A stretch of DNA of 26,244 nucleotides from a virus, in IMG/VR virus record IMGVR_UViG_3300031227_000360, positions 1 through 26,244 of that record. The stretch is one strand, 5' to 3'. Both the position numbers and the translations under genes were made by a program. Shown one piece after another: positions 2,227 to 13,603 of this stretch. The notes beneath the pieces were generated by a model. The model searched no databases. It saw nothing but the letters and a program-made list of their open reading frames with translations, and was not told the DNA's origin. Each line of letters begins with the position of its first letter. Position 1 is the stretch's first letter.

Positions 2227-2269
2227 AAAATCCCGCTTCTCTTTTTTTAGAGTGAGCGGGATTTTTTTT
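2227..2269. terminator. Strong bidirectional terminator between convergent blocks
   Basis: AAAATCCCGCT (2227-2237) pairs with AGCGGGATTTT (2255-2265), with an inner CTCT/AGAG helix and a T-rich loop. T runs follow on the + strand and A runs precede it, so it can end transcription from both sides. It separates the + genes ending at 1851 from the - genes ending at 2289. Confidence 0.85.
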
Positions 2270-2399: not shown

Positions 2400-2933
2400 T
2401 TATTTATTGTTAAAGAGTTTGATTAACTTGTCGGCTTTTTTGGGCGAACACTCTAATAAAAGGTTTTGAGGATCGTCTTTAACATATATTCCAACAAGGT
2501 CTTCTCCATTAACAACGGAAACAACGCAATCTCGTTTTAATTTTCTTTTGTTATTGAATTTTGCGGGTTTCTTATTTTCTTTTTTGATTTTGGTTTCATA
2601 TTTCCGCTGTGAGATATTACCATTAATTATATTTAATTTAAGCAAAAAAAGACTTGCCAGTTTTTCAGTCCAATCTCCATCCATAGCAGTTTCAATGTCT
2701 TTGCCATATATTTCTGTTTGCTTTTGTAGCACAAGACCAGCTAATTCTTGGGCGAGTTTTTGTAAGTCAAGTTCCTTTGGGATTGGTATAACTTTAGTGT
2801 GTTCGTCAATAAAGTCATAGAGTAATTTTTCTTTTGGAAAAATATTATCCCAAAAATTTTGATAAGCACTATTGGTATCATCGTTCTCAATCGGATCTGT
2901 TTCATAGTGGATTTTAAAGATGAATTTAGGCAT
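2400..2933 (-). CDS. Hypothetical protein, 177 aa
   Basis: Begins MPKFIFKIHYETDPIENDD. The N-terminal two thirds are helical and mixed-charge; a lysine-rich linker (residues 113-134) is followed by a small beta-like C-terminal part (CVVSVVNGEDLVGIYVKDD). No family recognised. It is preceded by the TAACTAACC-type leader shared by the upstream - strand genes, which supports this start. It is among the largest of the left-block proteins. Confidence 0.65.
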   Translation of the reverse strand: MPKFIFKIHYETDPIENDDTNSAYQNFWDNIFPKEKLLYDFIDEHTKVIPIPKELDLQKLAQELAGLVLQKQTEIYGKDIETAMDGDWTEKLASLFLLKLNIINGNISQRKYETKIKKENKKPAKFNNKRKLKRDCVVSVVNGEDLVGIYVKDDPQNLLLECSPKKADKLIKLFNNK

Positions 2934-2947
2934 AGGTTTATGGTTAG

Positions 2948-3283
2948 TTAGTCAAAAAATTTGATAGTAAGTGATTTAACTCTTTTATCACTTTGTTTTT
3001 TAGTTCCAATTTCAACAATTTCAGCATAGACAGGATAAACACCATCACCAAAGCCAGAAGAAGATACTACTCCAATTTCTGCCCCAATTTTATTTTTAAA
3101 TTGACCTCCTTTTTTTGTAGGGTGAGTGGTTAATTCACAAGCACCACGATAAGAGAAATTGCCGTCTTCGTCCTTTTCTTTTATGCCAAATGGTTCATTG
3201 TCTTTCCAAGTGGATAGATAGCACGGATCAGTTATCATAATTTGTCCGCTATCAACTCCACAATACCCAATTAGTGTTTTCAT
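2948..3283 (-). CDS. DUF4241-like conserved protein, 111 aa
   Basis: Begins MKTLIGYCGVDSGQIMITDP and contains CYLSTW, a central SYRGACELTTH, and VVSSSGFGDGVYPVYAEIVE near residues 73-92. The order VDSGQ-ITDPCY, GAC, then SSGFGDGVYPVY is characteristic of a family common in phage and bacterial genomes that is usually annotated as DUF4241 or an uncharacterised phage protein. I recognise the pattern but not a biochemical role. Length fits small members. The leader carries the block's TAACCAT motif, and 78 bases separate it from the next gene downstream. Confidence 0.65.
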   Translation of the reverse strand: MKTLIGYCGVDSGQIMITDPCYLSTWKDNEPFGIKEKDEDGNFSYRGACELTTHPTKKGGQFKNKIGAEIGVVSSSGFGDGVYPVYAEIVEIGTKKQSDKRVKSLTIKFFD

Positions 3284-3361
3284 AGTTTTATGGTTAGTTT
3301 TAGTATTTTACCTTTTTGGGGTTTAAATCGCTTAAATCGGCTTCTAACAACCTTAAAATGG

Positions 3362-3598
3362 TTATTCTGCGTCAGCTTCAATAGCTAATTCTTCTAATTC
3401 CTCTCTTTCTTTGTCGGTTAAATCTGCTGATATAGGAGTTTCTATAATTTCTAAAATATAATTTTGTGTGTCATTGTTAGGATCGTAATTTTTAATAAGA
3501 GTGGCCTCAATTTCTCTGCTGTCTTCCAGTTCAAAATAAATATGAAAGTATTTAGTTATGCCAGTTAATTCTTTTGTTGTGGTTATTGTTTTAATCAT
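3362..3598 (-). CDS. Hypothetical acidic protein, 78 aa
   Basis: Begins MIKTITTTKELTGITKYFHI. The N-terminal part alternates like beta strands (YFHIYFELEDSREIEATLI); the C-terminus is a strongly acidic helix (LTDKEREELEELAIEADAE). Not recognised. Preceded by a full TAACTAACTAACC linker that supports the ATG at 3598. Confidence 0.6.
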   Translation of the reverse strand: MIKTITTTKELTGITKYFHIYFELEDSREIEATLIKNYDPNNDTQNYILEIIETPISADLTDKEREELEELAIEADAE

Positions 3599-3610
3599 AT
3601 GTTTGGTTAG

Positions 3611-3784
3611 TTAGTTATTATTGATTACTTTCACTATTTCAAAACTATCTTCAACATATTCGCTGGGTAGTTCATAATTCTCGGCATATATTTTGGCTTC
3701 CTCCTCTGTGGTATGAGGAGTTTTTATTTCTAAATTGACATTGACTATTACATTTTTTGTTTCTTTTTTTGTTTCTTTTTTCAT
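3611..3784 (-). CDS. Hypothetical small protein, 57 aa
   Basis: Begins MKKETKKETKNVIVNVNLEI and ends EDSFEIVKVINNN. A lysine/threonine-rich N-terminus is followed by a strand-helix-strand-like body. The final AAC TAA comes from the TAACTAACTAACC linker itself, so the stop codon and the next gene's leader share bases. The gene's own start is preceded by TAACTAACCAACAAAACT. Function unknown. Confidence 0.55.
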   Translation of the reverse strand: MKKETKKETKNVIVNVNLEIKTPHTTEEEAKIYAENYELPSEYVEDSFEIVKVINNN

Positions 3785-3799
3785 AGTTTTGTTGGTTAG

Positions 3800-4000
3800 T
3801 TATTTTATTATTTCAGATTTATTATATCCATCTTTAAAATTATTTATCATTTCTCCAATTTCAACACCAATACCCTTTGACAATGAACCGTGTTCTTCAA
3901 CTGCGGTATCAATAGTTCTATTAATGCCACTAAAAATAAACCAAACAATAAATATCCAAGCACAGAAAATTAAAATTGGAATTATTAAAAGTTTTATCAT
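3800..4000 (-). CDS. Small membrane-anchored protein, 66 aa
   Basis: Begins MIKLLIIPILIFCAWIFIVW, an N-terminal hydrophobic helix of about 24 residues, followed by a soluble part containing GSLSKGIGVEIGEMINN. It resembles a signal-anchor peptide with a short soluble tail. No family recognised. The leader is a variant linker (TAACCAACTAAC). Confidence 0.6.
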   Translation of the reverse strand: MIKLLIIPILIFCAWIFIVWFIFSGINRTIDTAVEEHGSLSKGIGVEIGEMINNFKDGYNKSEIIK

Positions 4001-4015
4001 ATATTTGTTAGTTGG

Positions 4016-4174
4016 TTAATCTTCTTTCCCGCTACACCACCGACAGATTGATATGTCGTCAGTGGCACAAAAACAATCAAAGTATTTTTCGCCACATTTG
4101 GCACATTTAAAATATCCCTATCCTTTTCTACAATCGGGCTTATAATGATTTTCTGATATTCCTATATCTTCCAT
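4016..4174 (-). pseudogene. Zinc-ribbon gene interrupted by an in-frame TAG
   Basis: From ATG at 4172-4174 the frame reads MEDIGISENHYKPDCRKG, then TAG (4118-4120), then GYFKCAKCGEKYFDC and SICRWCSGKED to TAA. Downstream of the TAG the frame keeps a zinc ribbon (CAKC, CFC, CRWC), and gene spacing on both sides is normal, so one coding unit broken by a nonsense change is the simplest reading. TAG is used as a normal stop elsewhere in the window (for example 1849-1851 and 23331-23333), which argues against general UAG recoding. Programmed readthrough or an assembly error are alternatives. Confidence 0.6.
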
Positions 4175-4196
4175 ATGTTTGGTTAGTTAGTTAAAA

Positions 4197-4466
4197 TTAC
4201 CATTTTGGTTCGCAATTATCGCATAAGTGATAATTATAATCATCATTCATTCCAGTTTCTAAAATAGTATGATTTTTTCCATATTTACCTTTTTTATTTA
4301 TTGACCATTCAATCATTACTTCTTGGATATTGCGAGTTGCTGGTTTGTCGCAGTATTGACAGGCAGGAACTAATACTAATTGTTTTGAGCCACATTTTTG
4401 GCATTTTTTAGTTTCTTCATCACTACCAAACCACCCACATTTTTGACATTTATTTTTTTCTTCCAT
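4197..4466 (-). CDS. Double zinc-ribbon protein, 89 aa
   Basis: Begins MEEKNKCQKCGWFGSDEETK. It has four CxxC pairs: CQKC (7-10), CQKC (22-25), CQYC (36-39) and CDNC near residues 82-85. This is enough for two zinc-binding sites. The middle holds a charged segment (IEWSINKKGKYGKNH). It is probably a nucleic-acid or protein adaptor, but no family is recognised. A perfect TAACTAACTAACC linker precedes the ATG, and another lies just after the stop. Confidence 0.65.
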   Translation of the reverse strand: MEEKNKCQKCGWFGSDEETKKCQKCGSKQLVLVPACQYCDKPATRNIQEVMIEWSINKKGKYGKNHTILETGMNDDYNYHLCDNCEPKW

Positions 4467-4474
4467 ATGTTTGG

Positions 4475-4648
4475 TTAGTTAGTTAATCTTTTTAATATTT
4501 TTTCCAATATTTTATAACAACCTAAATCATACGCTTCTTCGCTATTTAAACGGAATATCTCGGTATAACCACTATAAATATGTTCAATATTAGGCCATAT
4601 TTCTTTCATTTCGGCCTTAATTTCTTTAATTAGGGCTGTTTTGTCCAT
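4475..4648 (-). CDS. Hypothetical small protein, 57 aa
   Basis: Begins MDKTALIKEIKAEMKEIWPN and ends KILEKILKRLTN. It looks largely helical and amphipathic. The last residues T and N and the stop codon are encoded by the TAACTAACTAACC linker of the downstream gene, a direct example of a stop supplied by the repeat. Function unknown. Confidence 0.55.
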   Translation of the reverse strand: MDKTALIKEIKAEMKEIWPNIEHIYSGYTEIFRLNSEEAYDLGCYKILEKILKRLTN

Positions 4649-4663
4649 ATGTTTGTTGGTTAG

Positions 4664-5107
4664 TTATTGTATGAAATTAAATGTATTATTCAAATCTTCG
4701 TAGTTCCAACTATTATCTTTTTCACGGTAAGCATTTCGGACTTCGGCAACACAAACTTGTCCGTCAGTTTCTTCTGCGAATTTATTTGCTTCTTCCATAA
4801 ATTCAAATATTTCTGTGTTGTTTTCTTCGTGTGTTACAGCAAAAAATACTCTTGTAAAGTCGTCCATTTCATCTTTAACAAATTCAGCACAATCATCATT
4901 TTGACAGTATTTATCTTTTGTTGGTTCACCACATAGATGACATTTTCTATCATCAAATTCTTCTATTTCGGTTATACTATCAAGATAATTTTCCATATCG
5001 GTGTTAGGATACATATTATCTCGCCAAAATATCTCATTCGCTTCTTGCTCATTTTCTGCTGTTATAAATTCACTTTCGTCTTTTATTTTGATTTTAAATT
5101 TTTTCAT
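4664..5107 (-). CDS. Zinc-ribbon-containing hypothetical protein, 147 aa
   Basis: Begins MKKFKIKIKDESEFITAENE, a small strand-helix motif like those seen in many phage accessory proteins. A CHLCGEPTKDKYCQNDDC segment follows at about residues 56-73, giving four cysteines in a C-x2-C ... C-x4-C arrangement. The C-terminal half is acidic. No catalytic motif is recognised. Preceded by a linker variant with TAACCAATAAATATAT before ATG. Confidence 0.6.
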   Translation of the reverse strand: MKKFKIKIKDESEFITAENEQEANEIFWRDNMYPNTDMENYLDSITEIEEFDDRKCHLCGEPTKDKYCQNDDCAEFVKDEMDDFTRVFFAVTHEENNTEIFEFMEEANKFAEETDGQVCVAEVRNAYREKDNSWNYEDLNNTFNFIQ

Positions 5108-5120
5108 ATATATTTATTGG

Positions 5121-5378
5121 TTAATAAATTAGTTCCTTATTTATTTTAGGCAATTTTTTAAGCGGTTTTAGTTTAGTATCATCAAAACAAGTATTATTAT
5201 TATAATCTTCTCTCAATTCGTTCATTTCTTCCAAACTCATCTGATCGCTTTTAGTGTAGTAGCAAAATCCACAATACATACATTCACCGCTAACAGTATC
5301 AAAGGGCTTGTGGTCGGAGTAAGCGTTTAATTCTTCCCCGCAGTTTGGGCAAATAGTGCCGTAAGAGTGTCCTGACAT
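5121..5378 (-). CDS. Zinc-ribbon protein, 85 aa
   Basis: Begins MSGHSYGTICPNCGEELNAY, with CPNC at residues 10-13 and CMYCGFC at about 33-39, a classic two-knuckle zinc ribbon. An acidic helix and a lysine-rich tail follow (KLKPLKKLPKINKEL). It may bind nucleic acid; the fold class is clear but the role is not. Leader: TAACCAATAACTAT before ATG. Confidence 0.65.
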   Translation of the reverse strand: MSGHSYGTICPNCGEELNAYSDHKPFDTVSGECMYCGFCYYTKSDQMSLEEMNELREDYNNNTCFDDTKLKPLKKLPKINKELIY

Positions 5379-5382
5379 ATAG

Positions 5383-5583
5383 TTATTGGTTATTTATTAA
5401 ATTTGCTACATACTCGTCAATGTCATTTTCGGGACAATTCTCAACCGCTTCAACAACCTTATTCATAATTTCGTGTCTTTCTTCTGCTCTTGACTGGTTT
5501 GGGTTGCTTGTATTTGCTGTGTGCCAACCAAATTCAATTCCAAGTTCAATGGCTGTGTAAATGTCTTTTAATATTTTGTTCAT
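5383..5583 (-). CDS. Hypothetical protein, 66 aa
   Basis: Begins MNKILKDIYTAIELGIEFGW and ends DIDEYVANLINNQ. It appears all-helical and acidic. Unrecognised. The linker TAACTAACTAACC precedes its ATG, and its stop lies four bases upstream of the next gene's start. Confidence 0.6.
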   Translation of the reverse strand: MNKILKDIYTAIELGIEFGWHTANTSNPNQSRAEERHEIMNKVVEAVENCPENDIDEYVANLINNQ

Positions 5584-5594
5584 AATTTTATTGG

Positions 5595-5813
5595 TTAGTT
5601 AGTTAAATGACTAAAATCTTCTGCTTCGTGTCCTTCTTCAATCATAGTTAGAGCATATTCTAATTCACATAACAAAGAGAGTTTTTTAGCTGGTTCTTCT
5701 ATTTCAGCATCAGCTAAAATATCAAAAATTTCTGAAAAAATAAGATTAGATTTATCTTTTATTTTATTTCTAATTGTTTTTTCTACTTCTTTTATAAGTT
5801 CTTTTTTTGTCAT
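5595..5813 (-). CDS. Hypothetical helical protein, 72 aa
   Basis: Best start is ATG 5811-5813, giving MTKKELIKEVEKTIRNKIKD and so on, ending EDFSHLTN. The frame is open further upstream (to about 5891), but that part overlaps the MerR-like gene in another frame, and the block's CTAACC leader sits just before 5813. It appears helical and acidic. The opening MTKKEL is also seen in the gene at 273, which may be chance. Confidence 0.6.
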   Translation of the reverse strand: MTKKELIKEVEKTIRNKIKDKSNLIFSEIFDILADAEIEEPAKKLSLLCELEYALTMIEEGHEAEDFSHLTN

Positions 5814-5817
5814 AAAT

Positions 5818-5994
5818 TTATTGGTTAGTTTGTTTATTAAATAATTTATCAAGTTCTTCGGTTGAGTAAATCCGATCCTTGCGTGAGCCAAAGCGTTGAG
5901 GAGTGATAAGTCCCTTTCGTTCCCAATTCCGCAAGGTGTCGGGGTGGATATTGAGATATTGACTGGCCTCTTTTATTTTTAAGTATTTCTTCAT
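5818..5994 (-). CDS. MerR/excisionase-type helix-turn-helix protein, 58 aa
   Basis: Begins MKKYLKIKEASQYLNIHPDT, continues LRNWERKGLITPQRFGSRKD, and ends RIYSTEELDKLFNKQTNQ. This is a MerR-type winged helix-turn-helix: a KIKEASQYLNI helix, a HPDTLRNWERKGLI recognition helix and wing, then RIYSTEELDKL. Solo 55-70 aa versions serve as excisionases or small repressors and activators in phages. Its stop TAA lies inside the linker, four bases before the start of the next gene. It is the only clear transcription-factor fold in the left block and lies at the upstream end of the TAAC-linker group, so it is a candidate regulator of it (inference). Confidence 0.8.
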   Translation of the reverse strand: MKKYLKIKEASQYLNIHPDTLRNWERKGLITPQRFGSRKDRIYSTEELDKLFNKQTNQ

Positions 5995-6005
5995 AGTTTT
6001 ATAAA

Positions 6006-6215
6006 TTAGTAAGTCATATAAGGGAATATATCAATATCAATTCCAGCGTTGTTAAGATTAAAAAGTTTATCAATTCCTAATTGTTTTGAGTGTTTATTTA
6101 TTGGCGTGTTAGTATTATTTTTTCTAACACTTGCCCAGTAATTGATTATATGTTCTTTTAATTCTTTCTGTGTTTTATCTGATAATTCATAAAAACAAAG
6201 GTGTAAAGTTTCCAT
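6006..6215 (-). CDS. Hypothetical protein, 69 aa
   Basis: Begins METLHLCFYELSDKTQKELK and ends AGIDIDIFPYMTY. No recognised domain. It is the first gene after the strong - strand promoter at 6243-6271, with a leader of about 20 bases and no Shine-Dalgarno sequence. Confidence 0.6.
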   Translation of the reverse strand: METLHLCFYELSDKTQKELKEHIINYWASVRKNNTNTPINKHSKQLGIDKLFNLNNAGIDIDIFPYMTY

Positions 6216-6242
6216 ATTTTTGTGATTATTGATTATATATCC

Positions 6243-6271
6243 ATTGTATCATATTTAAAATAATTTGTCAA
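6243..6271 (-). promoter_or_regulatory. Sigma70-type promoter driving the 6.2 to 2.3 kb block
   Basis: On the - strand: TTGACA (6271-6266), 17-base spacer, TACAAT (6248-6243). Upstream lies TTATCCACA (6290-6282), a perfect match to a DnaA box. The arrangement CATAACTTATCC ... ACTATTGAC is shared with the promoter at 10859-10887. It would transcribe the genes from 6215 leftward. Confidence 0.8.
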
Positions 6272-6304
6272 TAGTGTATAGTGTGGATAAGTTATGATAA
6301 GCAA

Positions 6305-6544
6305 TTATAATTTATCTGTTTCAAAAACCCATGCCCCTACATAAATAAAAGGATATTTTTCGTAGTTTATATTCTTTTTACAGAATTTAGCAATTCCTCT
6401 ACATAGTTTTATCGGGCAAGGATCTTCTATACTGCTTGATACAATAGACAAAAATCCCTCTTCTTCGTTGTGTTCATCTAAAAAAAATCGTTCAGTATTA
6501 AAACAATGGTAATGTTTTATAAGTTTTTCGTTTAGAGTTTCCAT
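6305..6544 (-). CDS. Hypothetical protein, 79 aa
   Basis: Begins METLNEKLIKHYHCFNTERF and ends YVGAWVFETDKL. Unrecognised. It lies between the promoter at 6243 and the palindromic repeat at 6553, so it is read from promoters farther upstream. No Shine-Dalgarno sequence. Confidence 0.55.
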   Translation of the reverse strand: METLNEKLIKHYHCFNTERFFLDEHNEEEGFLSIVSSSIEDPCPIKLCRGIAKFCKKNINYEKYPFIYVGAWVFETDKL

Positions 6545-6552
6545 ATTGTTTT

Positions 6553-6622
6553 TTATTTATTAGCGGTTAGCATAAATTCCCTTGCGTAGTGCGTGGGTAT
6601 TTATGCGTTTCCGTCAATAAAC
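6553..6622. repeat. Diverged copy (sixth) of the TTATTTATT palindrome family
   Basis: The outer arms TTATTTATT and AATAAACAA and the unpaired AG/TC pair match the array at 8.6-9.6 kb. The inside differs: GCATAAATTCCC pairs with GGGTATTTATGC (11 of 12). It sits just upstream of the start at 6544. The stretch 6623-6717 that follows has an AGATAAC/GTTATCT inverted repeat (about 6690-6718) and no gene. Confidence 0.6.
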
Positions 6623-6717
6623 AAAATGCTTATTGAAAGGATAGAAAGGATACTGGCGTTTTTTACTCCTGCCTGTGTCGGCTTTATAGAGATAACTTGT
6701 CTTTAAGGCGTGTTATC

Positions 6718-7152
6718 TTATGCCACCAGTATTTTATTTTTGTATTTTTGTTGGCTTTTTTTTATGGCCTCTTTTCTGTGGATCGGGCAATACAGGCCAT
6801 ATCTCGGCAACATCTTTTTACATTTTATACAGTAAAATGTTTTGCGGGTGTCTATTCTTAATCCCAGTTTTTTCTTTTTTGCCCTCCAATTTCTTGTAGC
6901 TTTGGTTAGCTGTTCTCGGTTATAATATTTTTTCCAATGCTTGGTTTTGCGATTATGTTCTTGTAATGCTTTTAGGCGTTCGGGATATAAAATGAAGATA
7001 ATCAGTCGGCGGGACACGCCAAAAAATTCGGCTGTTTGCCGTTGGCTTTTTAATTCCTTGTATTTTGCCCTCACTTCCTTGTGCTGTTCGGGCATTATTT
7101 TCCGCCGTCCGTCTTGTTGTGGCGTGAATTTGTGGTATTTTTCGTTTCCCAT
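6718..7152 (-). CDS. Helix-turn-helix plus zinc-ribbon phage protein, 144 aa
   Basis: Begins MGNEKYHKFTPQQDGRRKIM. Residues about 33-56 (SQRQTAEFFGVSRRLIIFIL) form a helix-turn-helix. A basic linker with YYNREQLTKATRNWRAKKKK follows, then a C-terminal CIKC ... YCPIH ribbon. The architecture matches a widespread family of small phage DNA-binding proteins without assigned function. The leader contains AAGGAACTCC from the repeat module at 7159-7195. Confidence 0.65.
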   Translation of the reverse strand: MGNEKYHKFTPQQDGRRKIMPEQHKEVRAKYKELKSQRQTAEFFGVSRRLIIFILYPERLKALQEHNRKTKHWKKYYNREQLTKATRNWRAKKKKLGLRIDTRKTFYCIKCKKMLPRYGLYCPIHRKEAIKKSQQKYKNKILVA

Positions 7153-7199
7153 ATAAAAGTTTTTAGGAGTTCCTTAATCGCCCCGCAAGGTGTTATTAG

Positions 7200-7538
7200 T
7201 TATTGGATATATGATATATCCTCTCTAAAACTAAATCCCTCTTCCATTGTTATATTTTTAATGTTAGCCATATTAGCATATCGGTTAAAATGTTCAACAA
7301 TAATATCAAGCATTAGTTTTTTGTTTTTATAGATAACAGTTTCGCCAGACATATCATATTCTTCCATTGTAAAGGGTATGTCATAAATTGCCATACTATC
7401 GGGTAATTTTTCTTTTGTGGTGATAAAATTTTCAAAGTCGGCAAAGGTTTTAAATTTTTTTTCGCAAATATTCAAAAGTTTTTGACTTTTTCTATATTTA
7501 TGTTCTTGTTTGTATAGTTTAAGTCCTAATAAATTCAT
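7200..7538 (-). CDS. Hypothetical protein, 112 aa
   Basis: Begins MNLLGLKLYKQEHKYRKSQK. It contains a LPDSMAIYDIPFTMEEYDMS stretch and ends EGFSFREDISYIQ. No family recognised. ATG is preceded by GAAAGGATTAAACAA, a good Shine-Dalgarno match within the repeat module, which supports this start. Confidence 0.65.
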   Translation of the reverse strand: MNLLGLKLYKQEHKYRKSQKLLNICEKKFKTFADFENFITTKEKLPDSMAIYDIPFTMEEYDMSGETVIYKNKKLMLDIIVEHFNRYANMANIKNITMEEGFSFREDISYIQ

Positions 7539-7662
7539 TTGTTTAATCCTTTCAATCCTTGCGGAGTGATTAAGAAGTTCCTGTTGTTATCCCGTCAAAA
7601 CTCCTCTATTTCCTTATATAAATTTTTAGGAGTTCCTTAATCGCCCCGCAAGGCGTTATGAA

Positions 7663-7977
7663 TTAAAATATTTCATATTCTAAATTGTTTTCGTATTCTA
7701 TTAAATTGATTATAAACTTATCTTTTTTTGTTAAGGGTGAGATTTTAGTGTCTTTTGGAACTATTATAATTTTATAATTAGTTTTAAGATTATAGGGCTT
7801 ATAATTATCGCTAAACATACCACCAGCCAGTTTACTTTTTCTTTCTTTGGCTATTGTTCTTGCCTTTCGTTCTGCTTCATCAATGCTTATTTTATCATTC
7901 ATCAAAACACGATAAATAATAAAATGCTCTTGGTCATTGATTAGTTTAGTTTTGTTATCATAAAAATAGTAAAACAT
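7663..7977 (-). CDS. Hypothetical protein, 104 aa
   Basis: Begins MFYYFYDNKTKLINDQEHFI. It has the charged helix DEAERKARTIAKERKSKL and then strand-like segments (YKIIIVPKD). Unrecognised. GAAAGGATAAAAAATCT before the ATG is a Shine-Dalgarno match supplied by the repeated leader. Confidence 0.65.
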   Translation of the reverse strand: MFYYFYDNKTKLINDQEHFIIYRVLMNDKISIDEAERKARTIAKERKSKLAGGMFSDNYKPYNLKTNYKIIIVPKDTKISPLTKKDKFIINLIEYENNLEYEIF

Positions 7978-8036
7978 AGATTTTTTATCCTTTCATTCCT
8001 TGCGAAGTGATTAAGAAGTTCCTGTTATCCCGTCAA

Positions 8037-8054
8037 AACTCCTCATAAGGAGTT
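8037..8054 (-). terminator. Hairpin after the 8053-8520 gene
   Basis: AACTCCT and AGGAGTT form a 7-bp stem with a 4-base loop overlapping the stop codon. On the - strand a short TTTT follows before GACGGG. It may act as a weak terminator or attenuator inside the repeat module. Confidence 0.45.
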
Positions 8055-8520
8055 ATTTATTATTAGTTAAGTATTTTAAAAATACATCTTTTGCTAAATT
8101 ATATACCTCACACTTGGCAATATATTGAGCCATAGCAAGTAAATCAAAGCCGTTTTTAAATTCGCCAAACTCTTGTAATGCTTGTGTAATATAATCAACA
8201 TTTATATTATTAGAATTTAACCAGTTTGTAAGTTGAGAAGTGTAGGGATCGGCTTCCAGTTCGTCAGTTATTGAGTCAAAATCTTCTATGATTTTAATTG
8301 CTTCATTAATACTTTTAGCGTCTGTTATGGCGTCATTCATTAAATCAAAAGCATAATCAGAGTTATCATAATAGAAGTTATCTATTTCAAAATCATTTTT
8401 AAAAAATAAATCTTTTAACTCGGTGGGCATATTATCATCAAAAATAGTTATGGTGTCCTCGCCTTTTTTAGTTGTGGTAAAAGATTTTGACAATATGTCT
8501 TTTACATTTATTATGTCCAT
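8053..8520 (-). CDS. Hypothetical acidic protein, 155 aa
   Basis: Begins MDIINVKDILSKSFTTTKKG. It is strongly acidic and mostly helical (DYAFDLMNDAITDAKSINEA), ending KDVFLKYLTNNK. The acidity resembles DNA-mimic anti-restriction proteins, but no ArdA or Ocr motif is recognised, so this is only a speculation. GAAAGGATTAAAAC before ATG supports the start. Inverted repeat copies (8024-8044 and 8545-8565) flank the gene. Confidence 0.65.
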   Translation of the reverse strand: MDIINVKDILSKSFTTTKKGEDTITIFDDNMPTELKDLFFKNDFEIDNFYYDNSDYAFDLMNDAITDAKSINEAIKIIEDFDSITDELEADPYTSQLTNWLNSNNINVDYITQALQEFGEFKNGFDLLAMAQYIAKCEVYNLAKDVFLKYLTNNK

Positions 8521-8590
8521 AGTTTTAATCCTTTCAGTCCTTGCGAGGAGTTTTTACGGGATAACATTATTGTAAATTGTCAACGAACTT

Positions 8591-8637
8591 TTATTTATTA
8601 GCTTAACCGCTAAAAAAGCAGTTAAGTCAATAAACAA
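8591..8637. repeat. Palindromic cassette repeat, copy 1 (diverged)
   Basis: TTATTTATTAGCTTAACCGC ... GCAGTTAAGTCAATAAACAA: the arms pair over about 18 positions around a short A-rich loop, with the unpaired AG opposite TC kept. It lies just downstream of the stop of the gene at 8639-8761. Confidence 0.75.
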
Positions 8638-8638
8638 A

Positions 8639-8761
8639 TTAAATCAAGTCAGCAATGGCAATGTATTCTCTTATCTTTTGCCAAAAACTATTTTTTTGAC
8701 AGTTGTCAGCGGATAAGAGTTTATCTTGCCATAGTCCAAAAAAGGTTTTTTTGAGGTTCAT
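8639..8761 (-). CDS. Cassette gene: 40-aa peptide
   Basis: Begins MNLKKTFFGLWQDKLLSADN and ends REYIAIADLI. A small basic/aromatic N-terminus is followed by a helical tail. It fits exactly between palindrome copies 1 and 2, with the stop two bases from copy 1 and the ATG 11 bases from copy 2. Unrecognised; it is supported by the regular cassette layout and an intact frame. Confidence 0.5.
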   Translation of the reverse strand: MNLKKTFFGLWQDKLLSADNCQKNSFWQKIREYIAIADLI

Positions 8762-8772
8762 TGTCTTTTTGA

Positions 8773-8826
8773 TTATTTATTAGCTTAACCGCTATAAGAG
8801 AGAAGCGATCAAGTCAGCAAATAATA
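8773..8826. repeat. Palindromic cassette repeat, copy 2 (diverged)
   Basis: TTATTTATTAGCTTAACCGC ... GCGATCAAGTCAGCAAATAA. It has the same outer design as copies 3-5 with substitutions in loop and right arm. It lies between the cassette genes at 8639 and 8834. Confidence 0.75.
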
Positions 8827-8833
8827 AAATGTA

Positions 8834-8968
8834 TTATCTTGTCGCCATTTTACTTGCTTGTTTAACTGTTTCAAAGTCCATTTTTTTTAGTTCGTCCATT
8901 GTTATTCTGTTTTCTTTTCTTGTGCCAAAATAGCGGTTCACCGCTTTTAGGGTTTTAGTGTTATACAT
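8834..8968 (-). CDS. Cassette gene: 44-aa peptide
   Basis: Begins MYNTKTLKAVNRYFGTRKEN and ends FETVKQASKMATR. Basic and helical; it might bind nucleic acid. The leader contains CATACTAACTATCCACT before ATG, a weak echo of the TAAC leaders. The stretch 8969-9062 upstream holds no gene; it carries GGGCGTTGTTTTTTGGCTAA, also found in similar form at 11046-11065. Confidence 0.5.
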   Translation of the reverse strand: MYNTKTLKAVNRYFGTRKENRITMDELKKMDFETVKQASKMATR

Positions 8969-9062
8969 AGTGGATAGTTAGTATGTTTTTTAATTTTTAA
9001 GGCGTTAAAGGCGAGTTTTGGGCGTTGTTTTTTGGCTAAACTTCGTGAGTGTTGTTTTTTTG

Positions 9063-9116
9063 TTATTTATTAGCTTAACCGCAATTTATAAGAAAAGCGG
9101 TCAAGTCAATAAATAA
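9063..9116. repeat. Palindromic cassette repeat, copy 3
   Basis: Arms TTATTTATTAGCTTAACCGC and GCGGTCAAGTCAATAAATAA around loop AATTTATAAGAAAA; identical over all 54 bases to copies 4 and 5. The arms pair at 18 of 20 positions, the AG/TC positions being the unpaired ones. Confidence 0.9.
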
Positions 9117-9117
9117 A

Positions 9118-9291
9118 TTATACTATTGTCAACTCGGCGTCTTTTTCAATATTCCCGTCTATTCGGACGACATATTTTGTCTTGTCGTTTAAAACTCCCT
9201 CTTTGCCATTTTTGCCGTTGTATTCCCATTTTTTATAAGTGTTTGTTAAATACTCCGCCCCGCCGTCAGTTTTGTGGTGATATAGTTTCAT
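9118..9291 (-). CDS. Cassette gene: 57-aa hypothetical protein
   Basis: Begins MKLYHHKTDGGAEYLTNTYK and ends GNIEKDAELTIV. Alternating polar and hydrophobic residues (EGVLNDKTKYVVRIDGNIE) suggest a small beta fold. The stop TAA lies one base after copy 3 and the start eight bases from copy 4. Codon composition is less AT-rich than its neighbours, fitting independent acquisition (inference). Confidence 0.6.
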   Translation of the reverse strand: MKLYHHKTDGGAEYLTNTYKKWEYNGKNGKEGVLNDKTKYVVRIDGNIEKDAELTIV

Positions 9292-9299
9292 AATGGTTA

Positions 9300-9353
9300 T
9301 TATTTATTAGCTTAACCGCAATTTATAAGAAAAGCGGTCAAGTCAATAAATAA
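9300..9353. repeat. Palindromic cassette repeat, copy 4
   Basis: Identical to copies 3 and 5 over 54 bases. It lies directly between cassette genes 9118-9291 and 9354-9521; the stop codon of the latter abuts it. Confidence 0.9.
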
Positions 9354-9521
9354 TTATTCAGTTTCAATATAAGAGTTATAACAGTCAATTCTATTTACTA
9401 TTTTTGTTTCGTCCATATCCTCTCCGCTTTTTATTGTCGCTTCAAACATTTTATAAATCCAATTACTTAATGGCGTTGACATTTTGCCATAATCGTTATG
9501 TTCAAAATATACAATATCCAT
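9354..9521 (-). CDS. Cassette gene: 55-aa hypothetical protein
   Basis: Begins MDIVYFEHNDYGKMSTPLSN and ends DCYNSYIETE. Acidic, with no recognised domain. Its stop directly abuts copy 4 and its start is nine bases from copy 5, leaving no room for a separate promoter. Confidence 0.6.
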   Translation of the reverse strand: MDIVYFEHNDYGKMSTPLSNWIYKMFEATIKSGEDMDETKIVNRIDCYNSYIETE

Positions 9522-9530
9522 TTTATTGTA

Positions 9531-9584
9531 TTATTTATTAGCTTAACCGCAATTTATAAGAAAAGCGGTCAAGTCAATAAATAA
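9531..9584. repeat. Palindromic cassette repeat, copy 5
   Basis: Identical to copies 3 and 4 over 54 bases. It is the right-most copy; beyond it the gene at 9597-9788 ends 12 bases away. Confidence 0.9.
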
Positions 9585-9596
9585 AATTATCAAGTA

Positions 9597-9788
9597 TTAG
9601 TTATTAGTGTTTTTTTTAATAATTGCTTTTCTAAACTTATCAGCGTAAAAGTTTTGATTGTCTGTTTCAAAATATTTGATAAGTTTATTAGTGATATTAG
9701 TAATAGCGTCAACCTGTTCAGGCGTGGCCTCTTGGAGCTGTTCGCCTAAAATGTTGGCTATTGCTTCGTAGTGTTGGCGTGAGAACAT
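9597..9788 (-). CDS. Hypothetical protein, 63 aa
   Basis: Begins MFSRQHYEAIANILGEQLQE and ends RKAIIKKNTNN. Small and helical, with VDAITNITNKLIKYF in the middle. The opening pattern FSRQHYEAIANIL is one I have seen in short phage proteins of unknown function. It is the gene immediately upstream of the palindrome array. Confidence 0.65.
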   Translation of the reverse strand: MFSRQHYEAIANILGEQLQEATPEQVDAITNITNKLIKYFETDNQNFYADKFRKAIIKKNTNN

Positions 9789-9806
9789 AGTTTTATATGT
9801 TATTTA

Positions 9807-9977
9807 TTAAATTGTAAGATTTTTTTTGAGCCATTTTTCAGTTGATAATGGAGAATATTTTAGCGGGTCTTTGCCATTTTTAAAACATTTCCAACAGATA
9901 ATAGCTAATGGTGATTTTTCTTTTCCGCAGAGAATACAATTTTTTGTATGTCTTGCTTTTTGTTCTATTGTTGACAT
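9807..9977 (-). CDS. Zinc-ribbon protein, 56 aa
   Basis: From ATG at 9975-9977: MSTIEQKARHTKNCILCGKE and on, with CILC and CWKC knuckles. The frame is open upstream to an ATG at 10032-10034, but that extension is encoded mostly by a 26-base leader repeat (10001-10026) also present non-coding at 10415-10440. The downstream ATG also has the CATAAAACT leader seen at 3283, so the shorter form is preferred. Confidence 0.6.
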   Translation of the reverse strand: MSTIEQKARHTKNCILCGKEKSPLAIICWKCFKNGKDPLKYSPLSTEKWLKKNLTI

Positions 9978-10000
9978 AGTTTTATGATTATTATTGAAAG

Positions 10001-10026
10001 GGGCGGAGTTCCCGTCCTTTGATAAT
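10001..10026. repeat. 26-bp leader repeat, copy A
   Basis: GGGCGGAGTTCCCGTCC followed by TTTGATAAT; it recurs at 10415-10440 with one change. Both copies lie 20-50 bases upstream of a - strand start, which suggests a duplicated regulatory leader. Confidence 0.7.
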
Positions 10027-10048
10027 TTATCCATTTTAATTAATTAAA

Positions 10049-10366
10049 TTAGTTAATGATAATCGGAGTTGATTTTATTTCATAAACAGTTATCCAGTCC
10101 TGTTGATACCAGTTTTCAACGGGAGCGTGTGAATAATCAGAGTTTTTGAAGCAATAGATAAAGCCAATGTGTTGCGAGTGATTGTCTTTGTCGTCAATGT
10201 AGATTTTTGCTTTTTTACATTGATTATAGTTTTCTTTTAAAAACTCCTTAACTTCTTTGATAGTTTTAAAAGTTTTTGTGTTTTTATCAAATGTTTGATA
10301 TTTTTCTTTTTTGTTGTTTATGGCCTTGCTTGTCTTTATGATAAGCACTTCATAATATTTTTTCAT
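10049..10366 (-). CDS. Hypothetical protein, 105 aa
   Basis: Begins MKKYYEVLIIKTSKAINNKK. A strand, the helix TIKEVKEFLKENYNQCKKAK, a strand (IYIDDKDNHSQHIGFIYCF), then a WYQQDWITVYEI end. The pattern resembles a family of short phage proteins with a conserved tryptophan/tyrosine C-terminus; no function is known to me. Start supported by the repeat leader upstream. Confidence 0.65.
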   Translation of the reverse strand: MKKYYEVLIIKTSKAINNKKEKYQTFDKNTKTFKTIKEVKEFLKENYNQCKKAKIYIDDKDNHSQHIGFIYCFKNSDYSHAPVENWYQQDWITVYEIKSTPIIIN

Positions 10367-10414
10367 AAAAGGTATGTTTTATAAAATGAATAAATTGTCA
10401 AAAAGCAGAAAAAT

Positions 10415-10440
10415 GGGCGGAGTTTCCGTCCTTTGATAAT
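10415..10440. repeat. 26-bp leader repeat, copy B
   Basis: Second copy of the element at 10001-10026, 25 of 26 bases identical. It is preceded by AAAAAGCAGAAAAA, and a looser third relative (AGGGCAGAAAAACAGAGTTTC) is at 10671-10691. Confidence 0.65.
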
Positions 10441-10465
10441 CCAGCCACCTGTGTTATTAGAGTGT

Positions 10466-10633
10466 TTAATTATGTTGTAATTCTCTTTTAATTATCCACC
10501 AGTAAGGAGTATTAAAATAATCAGCTATATCTTGATATTGTTCGTCTGATAATTTTTTTGGGTTATAATTTAATTTTATATGATTTTTAGCTTTTTCTAT
10601 ATTTTTTGTGATAGTATTCGGTAGATTATTCAT
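10466..10633 (-). CDS. Hypothetical protein, 55 aa
   Basis: Begins MNNLPNTITKNIEKAKNHIK and ends YWWIIKRELQHN. A helical N-terminus is followed by a KLSDEQYQDIADYFNTPYWW segment. Unrecognised. It is the first gene of the left block downstream of the promoter at 10859-10887, with a leader of about 215 bases containing the 17-bp hairpin. Confidence 0.55.
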   Translation of the reverse strand: MNNLPNTITKNIEKAKNHIKLNYNPKKLSDEQYQDIADYFNTPYWWIIKRELQHN

Positions 10634-10738
10634 AATCTTTTATCTTTCTAAAAAGTGGTTGGATTGTCAAAGGGCAGAAAAACAGAGTTTCAGAGTTAAA
10701 AAGCATTTATCAATTTATTATATAATACGGCGGGAGCG

Positions 10739-10788
10739 GACAAGCCACAAAATAAACGGGGTTAAATCGTGTTATTTTGTGGCTTGTC
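10739..10788 (-). promoter_or_regulatory. 17-bp leader hairpin with a competing arm
   Basis: GACAAGCCACAAAATAA (10739-10755) pairs perfectly with TTATTTTGTGGCTTGTC (10772-10788) around a 16-base loop. AGCGGACAA (10735-10743) can instead pair with TTGTCCGCT (10809-10817), excluding the outer 5 bp. It lies in the 5' leader of the left block. No T run follows on the - strand, so it is not a simple terminator; an RNA switch, processing site or operator is possible. Confidence 0.7.
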
Positions 10789-10858
10789 TTGTCATTTTAA
10801 TTAAGCCATTGTCCGCTTGTCTGTTGGTTTATCGGTTCTTGGCTTGATTACTGCTTTC

Positions 10859-10887
10859 ATTATATCAAAAAAGAAGCTATAAGTCAA
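10859..10887 (-). promoter_or_regulatory. Near-perfect sigma70 promoter for the left block
   Basis: On the - strand: TTGACT (10887-10882), 17-base spacer, TATAAT (10864-10859). The upstream part ATAAGTTATCC ... TACACTATTGAC repeats the arrangement at the 6243 promoter. It probably drives the genes from 10633 leftward. Confidence 0.85.
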
Positions 10888-10926
10888 TAGTGTAACGGGG
10901 GATAACTTATGAATAAATCAATAAAA

Positions 10927-10946
10927 TAGCTAAAATTAGCTAAAAG
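10927..10946. repeat. Tandem 10-bp direct repeat TAGCTAAAAT
   Basis: TAGCTAAAAT and TAGCTAAAAG in direct tandem, one helical turn apart. A single copy lies at 11058-11067 and another tandem pair at 11449-11468. Candidate iterons or operator sites in the divergent control region. Confidence 0.6.
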
Positions 10947-11021
10947 TAATTAAATTAAATCTAAAATTAAGATATAAGAGTTTTTGATTATTGAGTTGAT
11001 AGTTTATACCCTTTCGTCAAT

Positions 11022-11044
11022 AGAATTGTTTATATCGCAATTCT
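11022..11044. repeat. Inverted repeat AGAATTG/CAATTCT
   Basis: A perfect 7-bp inverted repeat with a 9-base spacer in the non-coding divergent region; possibly a repressor site or a small hairpin. Confidence 0.5.
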
Positions 11045-11057
11045 GGGCGTTGCTTTT

Positions 11058-11067
11058 TAGCTAAAAT
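11058..11067. repeat. Single TAGCTAAAAT copy
   Basis: Exact match to the tandem repeats at 10927-10946, just before the broken HNH gene. Confidence 0.5.
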
Positions 11068-11091
11068 TAAAACTTATGTTATAATTTTAAT

Positions 11092-11366
11092 ATGATATAC
11101 AATAAGGGACAATTTTTTATATGGTCAAATTCAGAAGAGTTTAAGAGTAAAGAGTATTAAGAGAAGAGATAAAGAGTAAAAGAGTTGATTTTATTGCTTG
11201 TTATCATTATACTTGCCAGAGATGTTATCGTGTTTTTGACTTATCAAAATTAAGAATACATCATATAAATAAATTAAAAAATGGTAATAATTCAAATAAT
11301 TTAATGGTGGTCTGTAATGTTTGTCATAGATTTTTACATCAAGATATAAATATAAGATTATTTTAA
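11092..11366 (+). pseudogene. Frameshifted HNH endonuclease remnant
   Basis: From ATG 11092 the frame reads MIYNKGQFFIWSNSEEFKSK, then EY and TAA (11158-11160). In the next frame the sequence continues ...KSKRVDFIACYHYTCQRCYR, then RIHHINKLKNGNNSNNLMVV and CNVCHRFLHQDINIRLF to TAA at 11364-11366. CxxC, HHIN, the N-N spacing and CxxCHxxxH make a complete HNH/zinc core, so one gene split by a frameshift is the best reading. Stops in the downstream frame just before 11154 rule out an intact shorter gene with a normal N-terminus. TATAAT at 11080-11085 lies close before the ATG. Probably a dead homing endonuclease. Confidence 0.75.
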
Positions 11367-11448
11367 TTGTATATACAAGGCAGGTTATTAGTCATATACT
11401 CTTATAATATACATTAAGAGATGCTATTTTATTGTATAAGATGAATAA

Positions 11449-11468
11449 TGGCTAAAATAAGCTAAAAC
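11449..11468. repeat. Second tandem pair of the GCTAAAA 10-bp repeat
   Basis: TGGCTAAAAT followed by AAGCTAAAAC. Same 10-base phasing as at 10927-10946. Nearby are CTCTTA/TAAGAG (about 11398-11419) and the palindrome TTGTATATACAA (11367-11378). Confidence 0.55.
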
Positions 11469-11474
11469 ATAGCA

Positions 11475-11508
11475 GGGGACGGCGGGGGTATGGAATGGCA
11501 AGGGGGGG
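11475..11508 (+). other. G-rich tract, possible G-quadruplex
   Basis: G runs of 4, 5 and 7 within 34 bases (GGGG, GGGGG, GGGGGGG), followed by GGG at 11522 and a run of nine G at 11713-11721. This is exceptional in so AT-rich a genome. It could fold as a G-quadruplex or mark an origin or packaging region. Confidence 0.5.
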
Positions 11509-11575
11509 AGTGGTTCGTTTTGGGTGGTAAGAAATCGTGTATAATACTATATATGAACCTCATCCGCGTATTTTA

Positions 11576-11649
11576 CTCCACTACCCCTCCTTCTACCCTC
11601 CTTCTATCTTCTTTCTACCCCTCCTTCTATCCCCTCTATCCCCTTCCTT
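11576..11649 (+). repeat. Pyrimidine-only tract with CCTTCTA repeats
   Basis: About 74 bases of almost pure C/T, with CCCTCCTTCTA and CTACCCCTCCTTCTATCC recurring. Such tracts form H-DNA or easily unwound DNA and occur near origins; the role here is unknown. No gene is visible in 11367-11802. Confidence 0.6.
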
Positions 11650-11721
11650 AAACCAGTAAGTGGTAAGTGTAATAGGAATCCCATATTCCAAAAAATAAAA
11701 TTTTAAAATTTTGGGGGGGGG

Positions 11722-11775
11722 TTGACAAGTTAAATAACTATAGGATATAATGTTTATAGTAGTTCTTTATAGAAC
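11722..11775 (+). promoter_or_regulatory. Consensus sigma70 promoter plus operator-like inverted repeat
   Basis: TTGACA (11722-11727), 18-base spacer, TATAAT (11746-11751), both perfect. GTTCT-TTAT-AGAAC (11762-11775) follows at about the start of the transcript and could be an operator or a 5' hairpin. It drives the gene at 11803 and probably the following ones. Confidence 0.85.
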
Positions 11776-11802
11776 AGTGTCAAGTTAAGGAGAAGTTAAG
11801 TT

Positions 11803-12132
11803 ATGTCAAAGTTAAGTCCATTTATCGTTTTAAAACGAAAAATTGTAGAAATTCAATATGATATACAAAGATATTATATTGGTAAAGTATTAACGATTAT
11901 AGATGCCTCTATTGCTGATAAAGAACAAAGGAAAGGTATCAAAGATTTAATACACGAAGCATTTAGTGCCAAACATTATTATAATTATAGTTTATGGGAT
12001 ATGATAATGCAGTTTGGTAAAGATTATTGTCCAGATGTAGATTGTAAAAGAGAAATCTTTTTTGGAAATCCAAAGGGAGATATAGTAGAACAAACACCAA
12101 CACCACCAGATTATTTTAAGGATTGCGAATAA
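11803..12132 (+). CDS. Hypothetical protein, 109 aa
   Basis: Begins MSKLSPFIVLKRKIVEIQYD and ends TPPDYFKDCE. Mostly helical, with a C-terminal CPDVDC segment and a proline-rich end. AAGGAG at 11787-11792 is one of the best Shine-Dalgarno sites in the window, ten bases before ATG, and a consensus promoter lies directly upstream. It is therefore expected to be strongly expressed, perhaps early. No family recognised. Confidence 0.7.
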   Translation: MSKLSPFIVLKRKIVEIQYDIQRYYIGKVLTIIDASIADKEQRKGIKDLIHEAFSAKHYYNYSLWDMIMQFGKDYCPDVDCKREIFFGNPKGDIVEQTPTPPDYFKDCE

Positions 12133-12177
12133 ATAATTAATTATTTGACGCTGTTTTATAGAGAATTATTTAGATTA

Positions 12178-12460
12178 TATAGTTCATTAAAATGTTAGGA
12201 GATATGACTAAACAACCCTTAGTAACTTCCTTGAGGGAGCGAAAAGCAATCGTTGGTTATGCGATAAGGTGCGTGCAAAAGTAAAACTATGGGGATAACC
12301 CATAGCGGTGATGGACAAATGTCTGAACCACTGTCAGCATGGCACGAGTAGGTGCATGACATTAAGATTACTTTAATTATATGCCAGTAGTAACCCACCG
12401 AAAGTTGTAGGTTAGCCTTTAGCGAGTGAATCCTACCTCCTAATATTTTAGTGAATTATG
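12178..12460 (+). ncRNA. Structured RNA A, about 283 nt, closed by a 24-bp stem
   Basis: Bases 12178-12201 pair without interruption with 12437-12460, 24 bp with four G-U pairs. Inner part of the stem: ATGTTAGGAG with CTCCTAATAT. Inside are CTTCC-TTGA-GGGAG (12226-12239), CTATGGG-GATAA-CCCATAG (12287-12305), CGTGC/GCACG, ATTAAG/TTTAAT, and GTAGG/CCTAC (12407-12436), which abuts the closing stem. The interior is clearly richer in G+C than its surroundings and has no open frame. G-U pairs favour RNA over DNA function. It resembles no group I intron core, tmRNA or RNase P that I can identify. It lies 45 bases after one gene and 12 before the next start. Confidence 0.75.
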
Positions 12461-12472
12461 ATAGAGTGAAAT

Positions 12473-12682
12473 ATGATAGAAGGCAATTATAAGTTTAAAA
12501 TTTGGAAAAAAGCTGACATATATTTTGCCAAATGTTTTAAGGATGAAAAAAAATTAGGGATAACTGATGGAGAAACAGAAGAAGAAATCTTTGAGATGAT
12601 AGCTGATTTCTATATGTCAGTTGATGATGTAAAAGTATCTGGCTGGAGCAAATTCTGGCATCGTATTCTTAAATTATCTTGA
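12473..12682 (+). CDS. HicB-like small protein, 69 aa
   Basis: Begins MIEGNYKFKIWKKADIYFAK. The pattern of strands ending in ITDGETEEEIFEMIADFYMS (about residues 31-50) matches the HicB/UPF0150 fold, in which a strand pair is followed by GDTEEEA-like residues and a helix. No HicA toxin or C-terminal DNA-binding domain is present, so this is a solitary HicB-like domain; such proteins are frequent in phages. It ends in TGA. RNA A lies directly upstream and the HNH gene 12 bases downstream. Confidence 0.55.
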   Translation: MIEGNYKFKIWKKADIYFAKCFKDEKKLGITDGETEEEIFEMIADFYMSVDDVKVSGWSKFWHRILKLS

Positions 12683-12694
12683 AATTAAAATTAT

Positions 12695-13318
12695 ATGGGA
12701 AGATTAATAGGATTTAAAGTTTCAGAAGAAACTAAAATAAAAATAAGTAATTCACATAAAGGTAAAAAACAATCAGAAGAACATAAAAGAAAAATTGCTC
12801 AAGCTAATAAAGGACAAAAAAGAAGTGAAGAAACGAGACAGAAAATGAGTAAAATTGCTAAAAATAAAGGATTTGGTAAATGGGGTAAAAATAAAATAGT
12901 ATCAGAAAAAACTAAACAAAAATTAAGAAAAGCAAGAAAAGGACAAAAACCTACTTTAGGGTTTAAACATTCAGAAGAAACAAAAAGAAAAATAAGTAAA
13001 ACACAAATGGGAGAAAAAAGTCATTTTTGGCAAGGTGGAATTACTTTAGAAAATAAAATAATAAGAGGAAATATTGAATTTAGATTATGGAGAGAATCTG
13101 TATTTGCTCGTGATAATTGGGCTTGTCAAAAATGTAAAGTTAAAGGCGGTAAATTACATCCTCATCATATTAAAAATTTTGCTCAATTTGAAGAATTAAG
13201 ATTTGCTATAGATAACGGAATTACACTTTGTGAAAAATGTCATATGGAATTCCATAAAATATATGGTCGTAAAGATAATAATATAGAACAGTTAGTTTCT
13301 TCTGGCATAAAGTATTAA
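12695..13318 (+). CDS. NUMOD3/HNH homing endonuclease, 207 aa
   Basis: Begins MGRLIGFKVSEETKIKISNS. Five NUMOD3-type DNA-binding repeats occur at about residues 9, 26, 43, 68 and 90 (for example SEEHKRKIAQANKGQK and SEETKRKISKTQMGEK). A C-terminal HNH nuclease has CQKC, HPHHIK as the catalytic/metal pair, then CEKCHMEFHK. Free-standing enzymes of this kind are selfish endonucleases that cleave an allele lacking them and are copied in by repair. No Shine-Dalgarno sequence. It lies between the HicB-like gene and a 41-aa gene, where it looks inserted. The catalytic residues appear intact. Confidence 0.85.
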   Translation: MGRLIGFKVSEETKIKISNSHKGKKQSEEHKRKIAQANKGQKRSEETRQKMSKIAKNKGFGKWGKNKIVSEKTKQKLRKARKGQKPTLGFKHSEETKRKISKTQMGEKSHFWQGGITLENKIIRGNIEFRLWRESVFARDNWACQKCKVKGGKLHPHHIKNFAQFEELRFAIDNGITLCEKCHMEFHKIYGRKDNNIEQLVSSGIKY

Positions 13319-13325
13319 GATTAAA

Positions 13326-13451
13326 ATGACCAAAAAACTACAAAAACTGATGGTTAAATATGGTTTAACAGTCAAGGATTTACCTGCTTTTCCTCCTAAA
13401 GTTACTGATTTAGAAAAACTGATAAAACTTATAGGAGAAGCTAAAAGATAA
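13326..13451 (+). CDS. Hypothetical small protein, 41 aa
   Basis: Begins MTKKLQKLMVKYGLTVKDLP and ends LEKLIKLIGEAKR. Two short helices are separated by AFPPKVTD. Its stop codon TAA overlaps the first bases of the closing stem of RNA B. Unrecognised. Confidence 0.5.
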   Translation: MTKKLQKLMVKYGLTVKDLPAFPPKVTDLEKLIKLIGEAKR

Positions 13452-13576
13452 TTGGTTATTAACAGTTGGTTTTCTGAAACCAAACAGATTTCCAAATAAA
13501 AATTGGTAGAGGATAGTATCAGAAGCGACCGTTAGGACGCAGCTCAGTATTATCCTCCAGCTGTTAATACCTAATT
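13450..13576 (+). ncRNA. Structured RNA B, about 127 nt, three or more helices
   Basis: Closing stem: AATTGG-T-TATTAACAG (13450-13465) with CTGTTAATA-CC-T-AATT (13561-13576). Next, TTGGTTT-TCTG-AAACCAA (13466-13483). Then GAGGATAGTA (13509-13518) with TATTATCCTC (13548-13557), enclosing GCGACC-GTTA-GGACGC (13525-13540). CTAATT-GGA-AATTAG (13571-13585) is an alternative to the outer end of the closing stem. It begins on the stop codon of the 41-aa gene and ends 27 bases before the second HNH gene. Confidence 0.7.
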
Positions 13577-13603
13577 GGAAATTAGTTATTAAACTATAAT
13601 TTT

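Follow-up and report, generated by a model that had tools for sequence, protein, structure and literature searches.

How do ribosomes find the start codons of a row of small phage genes that have no Shine-Dalgarno (SD) sequences and share instead one unusual leader? The question is raised by IMG/VR record IMGVR_UViG_3300031227_000360, a phage genome fragment of 26,244 bases with a GC content of 0.31 from a viral contig collection (hereafter the window), in which TAAC- and AACC-containing leaders, near-copies of the G-free general form TAACTAACCAATAAA-ATG, stand before twelve of twelve consecutive minus-strand genes. Comparison of this locus with related phages, unrelated phages and candidate host genomes leads us to favor, with moderate confidence, the interpretation that the TAAC leaders act as SD-independent start elements of one polycistronic early-type messenger RNA (mRNA).

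The original prediction that twelve consecutive genes carry such leaders is borne out (starts at 2933, 3283, 3598, 3784, 4000, 4174, 4466, 4648, 5107, 5378, 5583 and 5813). The motif TAACTAAC occurs 11 times in the window, on one strand only and every time within these leaders, where shuffled sequence is expected to give 1.1 copies. Within the 30 nucleotides (nt) preceding the twelve starts there are 25 occurrences of TAAC against 6.7 (standard deviation 2.3) in dinucleotide shuffles, and 11 of TAACTAAC against 0.2. G makes up 1.3% of the last 25 nt of the leaders, and the base at position -1 is T in all twelve. On the minus strand the leaders read GACTAACTAACCATAAACCT (2934..2953, before gene 2400-2933), AAAACTAACCATAAAACT (3284..3301, before 2948-3283), TAACTAACTAACCAAACAT at 3599..3617 (before 3362-3598), at 4175..4193 (before the small zinc-ribbon-like gene starting at 4174) and at 4467..4485 (before 4197-4466, containing the stop of gene 4475-4648), TAACTAACCAACAAAACT (3785..3802, before 3611-3784, its first TAA being the stop of gene 3800-4000), TAACCAACTAACAAATAT (4001..4018, before 3800-4000), TAACTAACCAACAAACAT (4649..4666, before 4475-4648, its first TAA being the stop of gene 4664-5107), TTAACCAATAAATATAT (5108..5124, before 4664-5107), AAATAACCAATAACTAT (5379..5395, before 5121-5378, the TAA of its CCAATAA being the stop of gene 5383-5583), TAACTAACTAACCAATAAAATT (5584..5605, before 5383-5583, containing the stop of gene 5595-5813) and AAACTAACCAATAAATTT (5814..5831, before 5595-5813, the TAA of its CCAATAA being the stop of gene 5818-5994). 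True tandem copies of TAACTAAC are found in only 7 of the 12 leaders, with three units in four of them, and the remainder are degenerate, with single or broken units. The distance to the ATG, predicted to be nearly fixed, is only roughly constant, with a CC-to-ATG spacing of about 6 to 11 nt.

The prediction that these leaders take the place of an SD sequence is correct for the twelve genes, but the absence of SD is not special to them; SD-poor leaders are the rule across the phage, its portal-gene relatives and the order of its candidate host. In the window, 10% of leaders have SD-like motifs versus 8% after shuffling, and among 305 leaders from the portal-gene relatives 8% have them versus 8%. 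Among genome records, a close portal relative (63% identity) was found in one only, a metagenome-assembled genome of about 0.8 Mb, G001, whose phylum-mates have genomes of 0.4-2.0 Mb, a size range that suggests Patescibacteria. G-poor leaders are common to the window, the phage family, G001 and its order. T stands at -1 in 84% of window leaders, 81% in the portal family, 74% in G001 and 69% in the order of G001 versus 45% in other genomes of the phylum (Fisher p about 3e-7), the host figures being blurred by taking the first ATG of each open frame as the start; in the same comparison SD words are commoner, at 32%, outside the order. The 16S ribosomal RNA (rRNA) of G001 ends in the canonical tail GGATCACCTCCTTTCTA, as does that of nearly all order-mates read. 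Neither G001 nor its order-mates have a GGTTAGTTA partner or anti-TAAC stretch, or a counterpart to TAACTAACC, in the 16S sequence, two sequences having no recognizable tail in the stretch read. SD sequences are absent genome-wide while the anti-SD sequence, as read in the candidate host order, is kept, the combination that characterizes SD-independent initiation regions. With G at 1.3% and canonical 16S tails lacking GGTTAGTTA, the leaders do not class as SD sites with respect to the candidate host. The 16S comparison thus supports the proposal of an operon-wide, translation-related leader distinct from an ordinary ribosome site.

Shared start style, together with one contig of a metagenome-assembled genome, indicates that the order of G001 is probably the host lineage of the phage. 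Most simply, the phage would follow the start style of this lineage, with little use of SD and, in its place, a leader that is poor in G, rich in A and ends in U before AUG. A Bacteroidota host is made less likely by the T at -1 figures, which are 67% for crAss001 and 54% for Flavobacterium phage 11b versus 84% in the window.

Local folding of the predicted transcript puts the openness of the leaders at about twice that of random positions (0.33 versus 0.18, a value reached by 12 of 2000 samples). Leaders shuffled in place are as open as the native ones, and so openness stems from composition; a requirement for the TAAC order in forming an open structure is ruled out by the same shuffling. In the mechanism we propose, the working part of the leader would be a G-free, unstructured stretch with the core AACCAAUAAA(A)(C/U)UAUG, carrying A at -6 and U at -1. 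The 30S subunit would enter this stretch to find the start codon, and S1 and the mRNA channel, not pairing to rRNA, would probably hold it there. A U at -1 may extend pairing to the initiator transfer RNA (tRNA). In this operon the leader doubles as the place where the upstream gene ends; UAAC and CCAAUAA supply UAA in most frames. The ribosome contacts and the functional effect of the leaders in this scheme are inferred.

Among the closest known parallels is the SD-independent, Kozak-like start context of Bacteroidota, exemplified by Flavobacterium johnsoniae, the species in which A at -3, -6, -12 and -13 together with low structure are measured determinants of initiation (PMC6847099). Both systems have no SD, keep a canonical anti-SD, and have G-poor, A-rich leaders of low structure with A at -6, and a group of phages similar to phage C75C1, described below, shares A at -3 and -13 as well. 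In contrast to the Bacteroidota context, T at -1 is the strongest signal here and A at -3 is weak in the window (44% of window leaders, compared with 80% for A at -6), the window leaders share an extended TAAC/AACCAAT sequence, and the candidate host belongs to a small-genome lineage outside Bacteroidota. With the core AACCAATAAAACT, as in the unrelated phage G418, A falls at all four of these positions (-13, -12, -6 and -3); in several window leaders the base at -3 is C or T.

Several observations weigh against the reading of the leaders as SD-independent start elements. A at -3 is present in only part of the twelve, and a requirement for suitable composition alone leaves the choice of TAAC/AACCAAT unexplained. 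The host link depends mainly on one contig. Among genomes of the class of G001, the pattern AACTAACCAATN{2,9}ATG is found in 23 of 381, no more than its reversed control, and a longer motif pattern is found in 1 of 380 genomes of the phylum. Finally, TAAC-like words occur in none of 300 leaders of the portal-gene relatives, versus 12 of 50 in the window. TAAC as a ribosome-site motif of the host is not supported, with no enrichment before host genes (380 genomes of the phylum and 381 of the class, the host groups covered). Given candidate host genomes that make no use of the motif, a sequence-specific element, if that is what the leaders are, would be a phage one.

Among portal relatives, the TAAC form is specific to this operon. 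The corresponding small-gene region of relatives G381 and G387 has A/T-rich, TAA-rich leaders, and the matches there to g5818 and g6718 are without the TAAC leader. These two are the only block genes matched in the relatives, with g2948 matched in other phages. Phage records contain no DNA match to the TAAC block, and scans with two block proteins gave two distant relatives for one and zero for the other. The proposed check of the motif in relatives therefore gave a divided answer, because it is absent from the portal-gene relatives and present in unrelated phages. An exact search of the viral collection with TAACCAATAAAACTATG returned 27 stretches. One of these, the 42 kb phage G418/L184, has five copies of TAACCAATAAAACTATG in about 0.9 kb of its first 1 kb, each preceding a small gene, with gene ends lying 4-19 nt upstream of the next start and inside the leader in several different ways; no window protein has a match in G418. 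The C75C1-like group (L045, L049, L210, L252, L259, L260, L263, L269 and L270; contig GC 0.44-0.50) has AACCAAT(A/C)AAAACTATG-like leaders, arranged in rows in the longer contigs, with G at 0-6% per position; A occupies -3 in 90% and -13 in 86% of these leaders, and T occupies -1 in 69%. Phage C75C1 itself (GC 0.38) has few such leaders and has SD words in 34% of leaders versus 21% after shuffling. Because these contigs were found by the motif itself, only rows within one contig count as evidence of recurrence. Single exact matches provide none, as AACTAACCAATAAAN{0,4}TATG is found in 31 stretches of the viral collection versus 27 for the permuted control AACCAACTAATAAAN{0,4}TATG. In L045 (8250 b) and L049 many small genes lie 80-90 nt apart, and GCTTAC(G/A)A-type stretches recur ahead of the AACCAAT leader.

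A stronger proposal is that AACCAAUAAAACUAUG with its upstream UAAC units constitutes a sequence-specific, SD-independent ribosome recruitment element, acquired independently by several unrelated phage lineages to drive rows of small early genes in SD-poor hosts, with a reader that might be a conserved ribosomal feature or a phage-made factor. We offer this version tentatively, as a possibility to which we give roughly one part in four of our belief.

The alternative that survives best, although we think it unlikely, is that the leaders are termination-reinitiation linkers, in which TAAC stops the upstream ribosome in any frame near the next ATG and the same ribosome restarts. At most of the junctions, 4-22 nt separate the end of the upstream gene from the next ATG, and that end lies within or just before the leader (the exception being junction 3283/3362, at 78 nt; both junctions of gene 4174 were assigned by eye on account of its in-frame TAG). 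As had been predicted, several upstream genes end on a leader UAA, their stops, in differing frames, being the initial TAA of TAACTAACC, the final one of TAACTAACTAA or the one in CCAATAA, and G418 shows a like stop/start arrangement. The further claim of stops in every frame holds in part. The leaders close a mean of 2.5 frames versus 1.87 in dinucleotide-shuffled sequence (30 nt; p=0.002), but only 6 of 12 have stops in all three frames within 30 nt, so that half of the leaders leave a frame open; their stop-rich character is real but incomplete. Known termination-reinitiation coupling likewise has upstream stops near the next start and no need of SD (PMC6728339, PMC10666635). Unlike those systems, the operon has gaps of 4-22 nt and no -4/-1 overlaps, and in published reporters re-initiation falls 40-80% at 13-14 nt and is nearly abolished by about 20-38 nt (PMC10666635). 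Given these losses with distance, the coupling originally suggested may contribute but would probably not suffice for the operon on its own. Two TAAC runs of L045 (ahead of 2394 and 5454) lie about 88-90 nt past the stop of the previous gene, where they serve no termination; the leader is thus separable from termination, which is not its sole role, and the idea that stops are its main purpose is not supported. The leaders also resemble additional in-frame (tandem) stops in having several UAA in a row after genes, but here the stops are in different frames and ahead of start codons, and a survey found no selection for fail-safe stops in eubacteria (PMC6764699). Under SD-independent initiation, local re-initiation from these nearby gene ends may simply add to independent initiation.

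Less probable still is a duplicated junction, in which local duplication or recombination copied the leaders, which would mark a cassette-like region of swapped small accessory genes. The leader and first codons at 4174 and 4466 are identical over 28 nt (repeat family D9), the block genes are almost unmatched in relatives, and other blocks of the window phage hold repeated intergenic units of their own (families D3, D6, D7 and D13). Against local copying, sequence comparison shows no paralogues among the block proteins (all-against-all E >= 0.03), leader lengths and sequences differ among sites, and recurrence in unrelated phages is left unexplained. That the leaders are recognition sites for a phage or host regulator (an RNA-binding protein, a small RNA, or a DNA-binding protein such as the MerR-like product of the operon) is very improbable: the likeness of the twelve sites exceeds what openness needs and the operon does encode a MerR/HTH_17 protein, but TAACTAAC has no plus-strand match in the window and hence the window encodes no antisense RNA with such a match, no Rfam family is present in the window, the motif is not palindromic, and phages with no detectable relation to the window carry the site as well.

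The minus-strand genes of 2400..6215, among which the TAAC leaders lie, are probably one operon, as judged from gene spacing and from promoter and hairpin signals. A candidate sigma-70-type promoter, TTGACA-17-TACAAT (6243..6271, minus strand), matches 11 of 12 consensus positions as a pattern and is located at 6271-6243, 27 nt before the ATG at 6215. A GC-rich hairpin with U-rich tails at about 2227..2269 (-19.9 kcal/mol on the minus strand, -21.8 on the plus) is likely the operon terminator, and the two patterns together would fit a single transcript of about 4 kb. Members include a MerR/HTH_17-like gene (5818-5994), a DUF4241-like gene (2948-3283) and several encoding CxxC proteins. One of the latter, the small zinc-ribbon-like gene 4016-4174, has one in-frame TAG (CRKG*GYFKCAKCG), which may reflect a broken gene, a sequence error or read-through.

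The operon belongs to rows of small minus-strand genes that extend from about 2400 to 10600. To the right, on the plus strand, lie the terminase large subunit (17407-20583), a 1058-aa frame with intein splicing, Hint and LAGLIDADG matches that is apparently interrupted by two inteins, and a P22/SU10-like portal (20606-22669). Portal matches in phage records are all below 60% identity and span about one third of the protein. Scans of the window for tRNA and Rfam families gave no match. Contig L014/G384 matches window 10606-26244 at >=99.98%; its left end corresponds by position to about 9155, and the TAAC block lies beyond its reach. A 159-bp exact tandem duplication at 24214-24541, within gene 24134-24688, is single-copy in L014, giving products of 184 aa in the window and 131 aa in the near-identical contig, either a real variant or an assembly effect.

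Other repeated leaders and units occur in the window. A 63-nt intergenic repeat at 9055-9117, 9292-9354 and 9523-9585 (90-95% identical, with diverged copies at about 8584-8641 and 8766-8830) can form a long hairpin, TTATTTATTgACTTGACCGC...GCGGTTAAGcTAATAAATAA, and stands immediately ahead of small genes. Between 7146 and 8545, repeated intergenic units place CGCAAGGA-TGAAAGGAT before three starts and CCTTGCGGGGCGATTAAGGAACTCC before others; in contrast to the TAAC block, this block is SD-like. The leader TTAATTAATTATGAA-AAAATAT-ATG precedes structural genes at 25008 in the window and in L016 (9465, 13216), L003 (4384, 7490), L025 (18127) and L011 (8475), and in relatives is possibly a late promoter or start element. 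A tandem array of CCCTCCTTCTA at 11585-11649, strand-biased with pyrimidines on the plus and purines on the minus strand, lies between divergent gene blocks.

No described equivalent of these leaders was found in the literature on TAACTAAC, tandem stops and non-SD phage leaders, in a search that left subscription journals mostly uncovered. How start codons are found without SD pairing is unsettled, and the question seems little studied in the small-genome lineages that probably host this phage, for which no paper was found. Twelve repeats within one operon, their natural variants and the parallels in unrelated phages are well suited to mutational analysis and ribosome profiling, and T at -1, as a signature, could aid host assignment of such phages.

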